DNA from: Constantimarinum furrinae
GTDB taxonomy: Bacteria > Bacteroidota > Bacteroidia > Flavobacteriales > Flavobacteriaceae
DNA length: 64,000 bases
Assembly (NCBI RefSeq): GCF_014295415.1
Contig: NZ_CP052909.1
Location: 62,001-126,000, forward strand
Reading direction: 5' to 3'
The position numbers were made by a program, and so were the translations under genes. Shown here in pieces: positions 24,304 to 27,558 of the stretch; positions within the stretch are counted from its first letter, which is position 1, and each line of letters opens with the position of its first letter. The notes beneath the pieces are model-generated. The model was not told the origin of the DNA. It saw nothing but the letters and a program-made list of their open reading frames with translations, and made no database searches.

Positions 24304-24368
24304 CTTATAGTTGCCTTATTTGTATTTTTTTTAGATTTTTGGCACAACGAAAACCAAACTTTACAACT

Positions 24369-24758
24369 ATGAGTGAGCAGTACGCAATGGAGAAAGAAGA
24401 AATATTTTCAAAAGTGATGCGTGCCGGAAGACGCACCTATTTTTTTGATGTAAGAGCGACCAAGGCAGGAGATTATTATCTAACCATTACCGAGAGCAAA
24501 AAATTCACCAACGACGATGGTTCTTACCATTACAAAAAGCACAAGATCTATTTATACAAAGAAGATTTCTCCGAATTTCAGGAGAATGTGAATGAAATGA
24601 TCCAGTATATCATCGACGAAAAAGGTGAGGAAGTGATTAGCGAACGTCACCAAAAAGACTACAAAAGAGAGGAAGCAGACGCAGAGCCTAAGCAAACTAC
24701 AAGTGCTGAGCAACCTTCTACTTCCGATTTTACCGATATCGATTTTGAAGATATATAA
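24369..24758 (+). CDS. PUR-family (DUF3276) nucleic-acid-binding protein
   Basis: A 129-residue protein with a single PUR repeat: EIFSKVMRAGRRTYFFDVRA, AGDYYLTITESKKF and the helix FSEFQENVNEMIQYI, then an acidic low-complexity tail with GEEVISERHQKDY and FTDIDFEDI. PUR-alpha-like proteins of Bacteroidota and spirochaetes bind single-stranded DNA or RNA and are proposed regulators. The true ATG is at 24369; a TTG ten codons earlier lacks family support. A strong terminator follows. Confidence 0.92.
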   Translation: MSEQYAMEKEEIFSKVMRAGRRTYFFDVRATKAGDYYLTITESKKFTNDDGSYHYKKHKIYLYKEDFSEFQENVNEMIQYIIDEKGEEVISERHQKDYKREEADAEPKQTTSAEQPSTSDFTDIDFEDI

Positions 24759-24783
24759 AAAGCCTCGAGCGTTAAAAATTTTG

Positions 24784-24813
24784 AAACCGTTACAACTTCG
24801 TGACGGTTTTTTT
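24784..24813 (+). terminator. Terminator after the PUR-family gene
   Basis: AAACCGTTAC (24784-24793) pairs with GTGACGGTTT (24800-24809), with one G-T pair and a 6-base loop, followed by a run of seven T. A classical intrinsic terminator. Confidence 0.85.
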
Positions 24814-24826
24814 ATATTTAGCCTTT

Positions 24827-25003
24827 GGGTGTTACCCTTTTTCGCTTCCCTTTGGAAGCTACAGAGCGTCTGGTCTGCCTAACGGCAGAGGCAAGATAAC
24901 GGCAGTTGCTTCCTCCACGACTCCCTTTTGGAGTATAGAAGGAGCACTCCAACAACACCTGAATAAGTTCGCCATAGCTTCAAGTACAGCTACGACGGGT
25001 CCC
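24827..25003. other. Hairpin-dense non-coding element upstream of the M14 peptidase gene
   Basis: About 180 bases that are clearly richer in G+C than the flanks and packed with short perfect stems: GGGT/ACCC (24827-24837), GCTTCC/GGAAGC with loop CTTT (24844-24859), TCTGCC/GGCAGA with loop TAAC (24874-24889), ACTCC/GGAGT with loop CTTTT (24920-24934), TTGGAGT/ACTCCAA (24928-24952, incompatible with the previous stem), and TAGCT/AGCTA (24975-24992). TAACGGCAG occurs twice (24880-24888, 24897-24905). A short open frame here has no recognisable protein. Candidate structured RNA or small mobile repeat remnant; identity unknown. Confidence 0.5.
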
Positions 25004-25041
25004 TAACGCAATAATTTAATCAACTATTCAGCAACTAACAC

Positions 25042-27558
25042 ATGAAAAAACTACGTTACCTACCTATCTTATTATGCTTCTTTTTAAGTACTGCACAAAC
25101 TAACGAATTAGATCTTACGTATTATCTTCCATCCGATGTTACTTATAATCCTTCTATCCCAACACCTAAATCGGTGATTGGTCATGAAGTAGGTGAATGG
25201 CACATCACGCACGATAAACTCGCTCATTATATGACCGTATTAGCAGAAGTGAGTGACCGGATTTCGATCGAGAACAGAGGAACAACTTTTGAAGGACGGC
25301 CTCTGCTACTGCTCACCATAACGGCCCCTGCCAATCACAACAATATCGCACAGATCAAAAAAGATCATCTGGCGCTTTCCGATTTAAATTCTGGCTCTCT
25401 TAACACCGCTAATATGCCCGCAGTGGTGTATCAAGGTTTCTCAATACACGGAAACGAACCCAGTGGATCTAATGCAGCACTGGCTGTTGCCTATTATCTG
25501 GCGGCGGCTCAAGGCCCAAAAATAGAGGAACTTTTAAACAATACGGTGATTCTTTTTGATCCCTCTTTAAATCCGGACGGCCTACAACGTTTTTCTTATT
25601 GGGCGAATGTTCACAAGAGCATTAATATAAACCCCGACCCCAACGACCGGGAATACGACGAGGTTTGGCCCGGGGGTCGTACAAATCATTATTGGTTCGA
25701 TATGAATCGCGACTGGTTGCCTGTTCAATTACCTGAAAGCAGAGCACGGATAGCGACTTTCCACGAATGGCGTCCTAATATCCTTACCGATCATCACGAA
25801 ATGGGAACCAATTCCAGTTTCTTTTTTCAACCGGGAATTCCGTCGAGAACTCATCCTTTGACCCCGCAAAAAAACCAGGACCTTACTGCAGCGATCGGTA
25901 AATTTCATGCCAGGGCATTCGACAAATTGGGGAGCTTTTATTATTCCGAAGAAAATTTTGACGACTTCTACTACGGAAAGGGATCTACCTTCCCCGATAT
26001 AAACGGAAGTATTGGGATACTCTTTGAACAGGCTTCATCACGGGGTCACGCTCAGGAGAGTGATAACGGGGTGCTCACTTTTCCATTTACCGTGCGCAAT
26101 CAATTTACCGCAGCGCTCTCCACTCTGGAAGCAGCCGTGAGCATGCGAAAGGAATTGCTGGATTATCAGCGTGAATTTTTTAATAATGCCCGAAGCGAGG
26201 CTACCGGAAAAGCCATTGTGTTTGGGGATTCAAAAGATGCTGCTAAAGCGTATCATCTGGCCGAAATACTAGATCGTCATCAGATAAAATTCCACGAATT
26301 AAAAGCAGATTTTGAGTCAAACGGAAAAACCTATAAAAAAGGGTATAGCTATGTGGTGCCTATGAATCAGAAAAATTCCAGACTCATTACGGCCATGTTC
26401 GAAAAGCGAATCACCTTTACAGACAGTCTCTTCTACGACATCAGTGCCTGGTCTTTCCCACTGGCATTTAATCTGGATTATAACGAGAATGTCGCAATGA
26501 ACAATGCAGGTGAACTCATTAGCGATCTTAAAATGAAAATGCCTGCAGCTCCGGTTAGATCTAACTATGCTTATCTCATGGAGTGGCACGAATATTATTC
26601 CCCTAAAGCGCTCAATATGATCCTAAAGGAAGGTCTACGGGCTAAAGTAGGGATGACTCCGTTTACTTTAGAAAACAACAAATACGATTACGGAACAATA
26701 CTTATTCCGGTTCAAAACCAAAAATTGCAGGGGGCAGCATTAGCCGAATTTCTCGCAAAGGTAAGTTCCGAAACTAAAGTTACGATCACCGGAGTATCTA
26801 CCGGACTTGCTCAGGGAAATGACCTGGGAAGTAATATGTTTAGAGCCGTAGAACTTCCAAAAGTAGCAATGATAGTTGGCGAAGGTATCAATCCTTCCGA
26901 CGCAGGAGAAATATGGCATTTGTTCGATACCCGCTACGATATGCAGATCACAAAACTGGATACCCGTAACTTTAATTGGAGGGATCTTAGCAGATATACC
27001 GATATCATACTACCCGCTAGTTGGGGAAATGCTCTGGATAAAGATGATGCCGAAAAATTAAAGACCTGGGTAAAAGACGGAGGTACGCTTATCGGGTATC
27101 GAAATGCCGGCCGATGGCTTAACAGCAACGAATTCCTTAAAATGAAATTTAAGTCGGTAAAGGATACCGCCACCAATATTTCATTCGAACAGCGAGGAGA
27201 TTACTTTGGTGCTCAGGTTATAGGTGGGGCAATTTTTGAAGCCGAACTAGACCGCTCACATCCCATCGCCTTTGGCTACAAGAACAGCAAACTGCCTATG
27301 TTCAGAAATACAACCATTTTTGTTGAAGCAGACGACAACAGTTATAACAATCCTATAAAATATACCAATAATCCCTTAATGAGCGGTTATATTTCCAAAC
27401 CCAACCTGAAAGAACTTGGAGGAACGGTACCGTTTAAGACAAGTGGTATGGGGCGCGGACAAGTAATCTATTTTACCGATAACACCAATTTCAGAGCCTT
27501 TTGGTACGGAACCAACAAATTGCTTATGAACGCCATTTTCTTTGGAGATGAGATGTAG
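25042..27558 (+). CDS. Exported M14-family zinc carboxypeptidase
   Basis: An 838-residue exported peptidase (signal peptide ending near LSTAQ). The M14 catalytic domain spans about 45-370: zinc ligands in FSIHGNEPSGSNAAL (H..E) and in LTDHHEMGTN (His), and the general-base glutamate region GSIGILFEQASSRG. The C-terminal part includes a ThuA/glutamine-amidotransferase-like Rossmann domain (IVGEGINPSDAGEIWHLFD, KLKTWVKDGGTLIGY) without an obvious nucleophile. Architecture and length match large flavobacterial M14 enzymes. It likely trims peptides in the periplasm. No T9SS tail is present. Confidence 0.92.
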   Translation: MKKLRYLPILLCFFLSTAQTNELDLTYYLPSDVTYNPSIPTPKSVIGHEVGEWHITHDKLAHYMTVLAEVSDRISIENRGTTFEGRPLLLLTITAPANHNNIAQIKKDHLALSDLNSGSLNTANMPAVVYQGFSIHGNEPSGSNAALAVAYYLAAAQGPKIEELLNNTVILFDPSLNPDGLQRFSYWANVHKSININPDPNDREYDEVWPGGRTNHYWFDMNRDWLPVQLPESRARIATFHEWRPNILTDHHEMGTNSSFFFQPGIPSRTHPLTPQKNQDLTAAIGKFHARAFDKLGSFYYSEENFDDFYYGKGSTFPDINGSIGILFEQASSRGHAQESDNGVLTFPFTVRNQFTAALSTLEAAVSMRKELLDYQREFFNNARSEATGKAIVFGDSKDAAKAYHLAEILDRHQIKFHELKADFESNGKTYKKGYSYVVPMNQKNSRLITAMFEKRITFTDSLFYDISAWSFPLAFNLDYNENVAMNNAGELISDLKMKMPAAPVRSNYAYLMEWHEYYSPKALNMILKEGLRAKVGMTPFTLENNKYDYGTILIPVQNQKLQGAALAEFLAKVSSETKVTITGVSTGLAQGNDLGSNMFRAVELPKVAMIVGEGINPSDAGEIWHLFDTRYDMQITKLDTRNFNWRDLSRYTDIILPASWGNALDKDDAEKLKTWVKDGGTLIGYRNAGRWLNSNEFLKMKFKSVKDTATNISFEQRGDYFGAQVIGGAIFEAELDRSHPIAFGYKNSKLPMFRNTTIFVEADDNSYNNPIKYTNNPLMSGYISKPNLKELGGTVPFKTSGMGRGQVIYFTDNTNFRAFWYGTNKLLMNAIFFGDEM

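Follow-up and report, generated by a model that had tools for sequence, protein, structure and literature searches.

A folded intergenic element before an M14 peptidase gene of Constantimarinum furrinae as a probable diverged member of a dispersed Flavo-1-like repeat family

We consider it fairly probable that the hairpin-rich segment before the M14 peptidase gene in the window (the whole stretch of 64,000 nucleotides analysed here) belongs, in diverged form, to a large family of folded repeats. These REP-like repeats are dispersed between genes in Flavobacteriaceae and in other families of the phylum, and the Flavo-1 RNA motif would be one outer-stem variant of them. The original prediction had offered a structured RNA, a switch-like leader of the peptidase gene or a remnant of a small mobile repeat. 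Taken as a whole it stood in part: homologous copies, covariation and kinship with Flavo-1 were found, but a switch dedicated to the peptidase gene was not supported.

The element in the window and its copies in the same genome

The segment is a real GC-rich non-coding block with an excess of short perfect stems. The contrast in composition that had been noted is genuine, the G+C fraction being 0.52 in the element versus 0.37 upstream and 0.32 downstream. The whole element occupies positions 24824..25009 of the forward strand (TTT-GGGTGTTACCC ... CCCTAACGC), as delimited by homology to two copies in the same genome (L197 and L002) and by ends that match the family consensus. This is slightly beyond the extent initially proposed (24827-25003), as the element reaches CCCTAACGC at 25001-25009. 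Its neighbours on the same strand are a DUF3276 gene (24339..24758; Pfam PF11680, E 1.2e-52) and a gene for an M14 family zinc carboxypeptidase (25042..27558; Pfam PF00246, E 3.3e-21). A terminator-like hairpin with a T run, visible in the sequence, follows the DUF3276 gene on the forward strand (24784..24816) and lies outside the element. It ends at about 24816, 10 bases before the element, in agreement with the proposed start just after a terminator. For a 68-aa open frame that crosses the element (24800-25006) the Pfam search gave no match.

The short perfect stems with CTTT/CTTTT and TAAC loops were also recovered. Seven distinct stems of 5-7 bp are present within 24844-24992, all given here on the forward strand. 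The first (24844-24859, 6 bp, CTTT loop) is the hairpin GCTTCC-CTTT-GGAAGC, which lies inside the P2 arm of the family fold described below and has a homologous hairpin in L002. An extra hairpin, TCTGCC-TAAC-GGCAGA (24874..24889, 6 bp, TAAC loop), is found at the same place in that copy. Two stems of 5 bp each follow at 24876-24893 and 24913-24933. The next two, at 24920-24934 (5 bp, CTTTT loop) and 24928-24952 (7 bp), have GGAGT in common and are mutually exclusive, as had been described. The last (24975-24992, 5 bp) pairs TAGCT with AGCTA. The 9-base direct repeat, TAACGGCAG, is indeed present at 24880-24888 and 24897-24905. Stems of at least 5 bp amount to nine entries including loop variants, versus a mean of 1.9 in dinucleotide shuffles, and 2 of 500 shuffles reach nine; the three stems of at least 6 bp are equalled in 23 of 500. 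The folding energy of the element is not unusual either as RNA (z -1.13; 27 of 200 shuffles equally good) or as DNA (z -1.27; 21 of 200).

Homologous copies, which the original prediction had named as a check, were found in the same genome. A nucleotide search revealed a second place at 1507469 (L002; 81 percent identity over 42 bases, E 3.5e-4), which begins with the same kind of start, GGGCGTTNCCC. The window copy was then compared by local alignment with 19 copies, including two (L092 and L109) that stand before the M14 gene in other genomes. The highest scores belong to L197 (G000:13425-13598), with 74 versus a shuffle maximum of 49, and to L002 (G000:1507469), with 73 versus 47; none of 500 shuffles reached either score. 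L198 scored 44, a value reached in 1 of 500 shuffles, and weaker similarity was seen for L200, L192, L205 and L191 (3 to 9 of 500), while L092 and L109 do not stand out. The shared modules follow the same pattern: the extra 5' hairpin is common to the window copy and L002, and the extra 3' hairpin to the window copy, L197 and L198.

The covariance model of the family (R1) recovers L197 (E 9.6e-4) and L198 (E 0.0019); L002 is absent from the list of its matches. It gives no match at 24827-25009, either with default filters (E up to 1) or unfiltered (E up to 10), so the membership of the window copy rests on the chain through the copies in its own genome. When the window segment was searched in 299 genomes of the bacterial family, the matches outside its own genome were limited to three genomes and 22 to 24 bases in length, and none was element-like. 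The loose pattern GGGYGTTNCCC with one mismatch allowed showed no enrichment over control in the own genome. By this chain of sequence similarity the window copy appears to be a diverged and elaborated member of a wider Flavo-1-like family.

Family fold, covariation and relation to Flavo-1

The exact pattern TTTGGGCGTTNCCC is present in 117 of 298 genomes of the bacterial family, in up to 43 copies (genome G264), and the reversed pattern used as a control occurs 0 to 2 times per strand in any genome. A typical copy reads GGGCGTTACCC, a short loop, GGGTCGGGCTTTC, a hairpin and CAATCCCTAACGC. The fold, as named from 35 copies (alignment A1), consists of P1 (GCGTTA/TAACGC), a P2 hairpin (CCC/GGG), P3 (GGG/CCC), P4 of two to three pairs and a variable terminal hairpin. 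P1, P2 and P3 form a three-way junction, and the second arm carries a conserved imperfect loop, CTTTC/CAAT. In the window the 5' strand of P1 is GTGTTA (24829..24834), at the family position of GCGTTA, and the 3' strand is TAACGC (25004..25009), also at its family position, both on the forward strand; they pair by five Watson-Crick pairs and one T.G. The ends of the window copy, GGGYGTTNCCC (24827-24837) and CCCTAACGC, thus pair as P1 of the family. Between them, again on the forward strand, lie an inner arm of the type AGTYGCTTCC..GGAGCNCTCCAACA (24905..24958, from the alignment to L197), which holds the two alternative stems, and the extra 3' hairpin module with TAGCT/AGCTA (24959..25000).

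Compensatory changes, the other sign that had been looked for, are strong in the family, with no shuffle among 500 reaching the covariation score in any of three alignments. In A1 the score is 0.167 versus 0.058 for shuffles, and 5 of 15 pairs changed on both sides. The corresponding numbers are 12 of 15 pairs in A2 (84 distinct rows) and 11 of 15 in A3 (72 distinct rows), both of which were fitted to the model and so lean towards the structure; slid controls were far lower. Within the own genome P1 also varies in a compensated way, appearing as GCGTTA/TAACGC, GCAAT/ATTGC, GCATT/AATGC, GCGTG/CACGC and GCAAAA/TTTTGC. When folded without constraint, L045 and L078 adopted the family structure, which L070, L080 and L188 did not. 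R1 has 18 matches in the own genome with E up to 10, of which 17 have E<0.05; at least one, L204, looks spurious by eye. Across the phylum (E up to 0.001, strict filters) 14 of 99 genomes have matches: 8 of 9 in the own family, 1 of 2 in the same order, 4 of 13 in the same class and 1 of 75 among the others.

The Flavo-1 RNA motif (Rfam RF01705) comes from Weinberg et al. 2010 (PMC2864571, available in excerpt). Since 2010 it has been a probable RNA without a function, and in the excerpted text of PMC9723704 RNA-seq gave no clue. The hint that the Flavo-1 model should be consulted proved right in that Flavo-1 is a relative, sharing the core and exceeding its cut-off, on the opposite strand, in 3 of the 19 three-way loci of canonical form, but not in that the window copy matches the model. 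The Rfam search returned no match in the window, Flavo-1 included, and Flavo-1 gave none up to E 10 in 24750-25060, and the window copy does not reach the gathering score of 42 bits. Of the 298 genomes, 209 have a Flavo-1 match at E up to 1 and 175 one over the cut-off, the latter being the case for 0 of 14 control genomes. Flavo-1 and the three-way copies occur in the same lineage and have the same core, CTWTCC-NN-..-hairpin-..-N'N'-TNCWAT. They differ in that the best Flavo-1 matches surround this core with the outer stem AGC..CCYG/CRGG-GCT and are without the P2 hairpin, and in that the model lies on the opposite strand and misses most three-way types as well as the window copy. Because its best matches combine another outer stem with the same core, Flavo-1 as modelled appears to be one variant of a wider family.

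A search of the literature by motif letters yielded nothing relevant-looking among the titles listed, and the excerpts of two papers from a search on REP-like repeats in flavobacteria (PMC12306157 and PMC3733652) do not mention the motif. Two papers name Flavo-1 together with flavobacteria, and four name RF01705. Placing Flavo-1 in a larger family would turn a vague motif into a testable object. What is added to it is a second kind of outer stem, covariation that is almost entirely Watson-Crick, sites common to several genera and exchanged inner hairpins. A model of the family could serve the annotation of many intergenic loci in flavobacteria.

Genomic positions and the peptidase site

The element stands behind a terminator-like hairpin and ahead of a start codon, and reads the same way as the gene, which would suit a riboswitch or leader that serves the M14 peptidase alone. 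The hairpin with its T run is also found behind the DUF3276 gene in relatives, where it is followed by a TATNTTTA motif that we take to be a possible promoter; for this reason the window element is probably part of the 5' leader of the M14 transcript. Of 80 relatives picked by their M14 protein, 72 have a recognisable DUF3276 gene ahead of the M14 gene, mostly at a spacing of 64 to 130 bases. An element stands at this site in two of these 72 (L092 and L109) and is absent from 70, although the R1 search used here could miss elaborated copies like that of the window. Inspection by eye of eight more spacers, each over 130 bases long, did not reveal the family core. Moreover, the two elements differ from the window copy in inner type, and other copies of the family adjoin many unrelated genes. 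The rarity of the element among relatives that keep the gene pair argues against a dedicated leader, and we regard this explanation, which the original prediction had put forward as a switch, as very improbable. In most relatives the element is required by neither the DUF3276 gene nor the M14 gene. In a tree of M14 proteins (31 rows) the three carriers are not one clade: the presence of the element needs two changes, and 0 percent of 200 bootstrap trees have one change. More than one gain, or losses, would therefore be needed.

Elsewhere many copies start no more than about 25 bases from a stop codon, and a number of sites are common to different genera. Among copies chosen independently from different genera, homologous genes on both flanks were found for L040/L214, L045/L281, L049/L065, L052/L191 and L060/L062, for the group L199/L242/L243/L291 and, weakly, for L201/L240. 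Copies with the AGC stem add four further groups and one pair. Genes recognised at shared sites include ftsY, tetR, nfu together with a pyridine nucleotide-disulphide oxidoreductase gene, znuA, an hgmA-like gene and the gene for SAICAR synthetase. By eye, the own-genome copy L002 precedes the same TetR gene as L049. We also observed, by eye, a Flavo-1-type element between sufD-like and sufS-like genes, which we take to be sufD and sufS, in eight genera (L169, L175, L176, L297, L301, L304, L311 and L314); shared flanks were confirmed for L169, L175, L176 and L304.

At a shared site the inner part of the element is not always the same. Six element sites were compared in a collinear stretch of two genomes of one genus (G044 and G264). 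Three of them have agreeing flanks but another inner hairpin type, one has the same type with another loop, one is identical and one is degenerate in G044. In three other, closer genus pairs the inner type is kept at 6 of 6 sites, and across genera the same site has a different inner type in L040/L214, L052/L191 and L199/L242. Non-allelic gene conversion through the common arms may be the simplest account of this exchange.

As a separate observation, some copies (L079, L207 13581-13729 and L214 6100-6252) have another repeat, of the TCATTGCGAGG kind, within their terminal loop. Repeats of this kind are common in bacteria.

Nature of the folded strand and means of dispersal

If the element acted as RNA, it would belong to the sense strand of untranslated or intercistronic mRNA, for example as a processing site or a stabiliser of the 3' end, and its orientation would be the reverse of that of the Flavo-1 model. 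The copies with the AGC stem fit such a role, as most of them follow a stop codon in sense orientation, with a co-directional upstream gene in 36 of 41 cases (a count that includes L312, of the three-way kind, and several entries for the same locus in different genera). Positions common to several genera suggest selection. Three-way copies, however, have no clear orientation: the upstream gene is co-directional in 49 of 81 (63 + 20 copies, two without a call omitted). Co-directional three-way copies have 11 G.T and 6 A.C pairs and reversed ones 2 and 5, a weak leaning to the sense strand. Against an RNA stands the pairing over all 156 rows, where 12 well-aligned pair positions (three poorly paired ones excluded beforehand) comprise 1609 Watson-Crick cells, 18 G.T, 26 A.C and 33 of other kinds. 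In the 35 AGC-stem copies P3 has no departure from Watson-Crick pairing in its 140 cells, a figure somewhat favoured by a collection pattern that asked for stem parts. Its third pair is CG in 16, TA in 15, GC in 3 and AT in 1, and P4 in AGC-stem copies has 62 Watson-Crick, 0 G.T, 2 A.C and 6 other cells. By contrast, 149 pairs from seven tRNAs at those loci show 9 G.T and 0 A.C, in a control that is small and favours G.T by its method. According to the excerpted text of PMC9723704, Flavo-1 matches in Flavobacterium psychrophilum are found alike in sense and in antisense to transcribed regions, and many fall outside any such region. The same excerpt describes, ahead of ftsY, a conserved structured 5' element; a shared site of our family is also upstream of ftsY and might correspond to it. 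The RNA explanation, all told, seems possible but doubtful to us.

Taken together, the pairing and the published RNA-seq are more in favour of pairing at the level of DNA than of RNA. A bolder proposal, citing the nearly pure Watson-Crick covariation and the lack of strand preference over all copies, is that the Flavo-1 'sRNA' is a slice of a Bacteroidota-wide intergenic family with DNA-level pairing, fixed gene positions, cassette-like inner hairpins and a factor other than Y1 that handles the single strand. We advance it tentatively, and in its entirety it is rather unlikely.

REP elements and BIMEs are short folded intergenic repeats with many copies, often just behind stop codons, and with variable loops. 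The family is alike in all these respects; it differs in its larger size (80-200 nt) and three-way junction and in having neither an established GTAG/CGTC tag nor an association with Y1 (RAYT) transposases. Genes for the latter (PF01797) number 0 in the own genome and occur in 11 of 29 element-rich versus 11 of 37 Flavo-1-free genomes (the Flavo-1-free list being partly inferred by subtraction), and we therefore rejected a REP mobilised by Y1/RAYT. We think that the family most likely consists of structured, REP-like intergenic repeats that are maintained as a folded strand. As with REP elements, this single strand may be recognised by some factor of the cell, though no protein partner was found. 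Inner hairpins would be swapped between copies of one genome by the gene conversion outlined above, and the element would be retained in the stretch that follows a stop codon. Its place in the window is behind the DUF3276 terminator and before the peptidase gene.

The suggested remnant of a small mobile repeat may apply in so far as the repeat is dispersed, but many positions are old and shared between genera. A related explanation is a non-autonomous MITE-like or REP-like element, moved by some transposase or recombinase, with the window copy as an old insertion. Dispersal, inner types that recur almost unchanged at several G264 loci, different outer stems around one core and a possible repeated gain at the M14 site would all be expected of it. 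Losses also fit the M14 tree, however, and the comparison of G044 with G264 revealed no clean empty site or insertion with target duplication. One canonical copy had no match in plasmid or phage records, nor did the window copy in plasmid records. With many sites common to several genera and no association with Y1, we judge present or past mobility of this kind to be somewhat unlikely. Two specific candidates were also discarded: the one presence/absence case (A52368-52717, 349 nt) is not a clean insertion and takes in some 270 additional bases, and an autonomous version was sought between paired copies, where the L216 pair encloses apparent respiratory-operon genes (by eye) and no transposase.

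An integron attC-like recombination site would likewise be a folded palindrome with conserved imperfections and a variable tip, and attC-like palindromes lie just 3' of several copies in other genomes. The ends of attC, however, are 5' RYYYAAC and 3' GTTRRRY. In the copies examined the end boxes of the family have the opposite order of GTT and AAC, so this identity was rejected and we give it hardly any credence. The palindromes were seen in G044 and G264 copies (L208 18948, L216, L224, L077 and L078), in which TAACGC is followed by a conserved tail and then by TTTAACG..CATTGTTG.

Finally, some copies occur as inverted pairs 110 to 1100 bases apart (L058 1198-1511, L247 2083-2539 and L246 1432-2704) and recall paired REPs. 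In L216 (10538-11919) two oppositely oriented copies are located among what appear by eye to be accessory genes of a cytochrome oxidase operon (ccoG and others).
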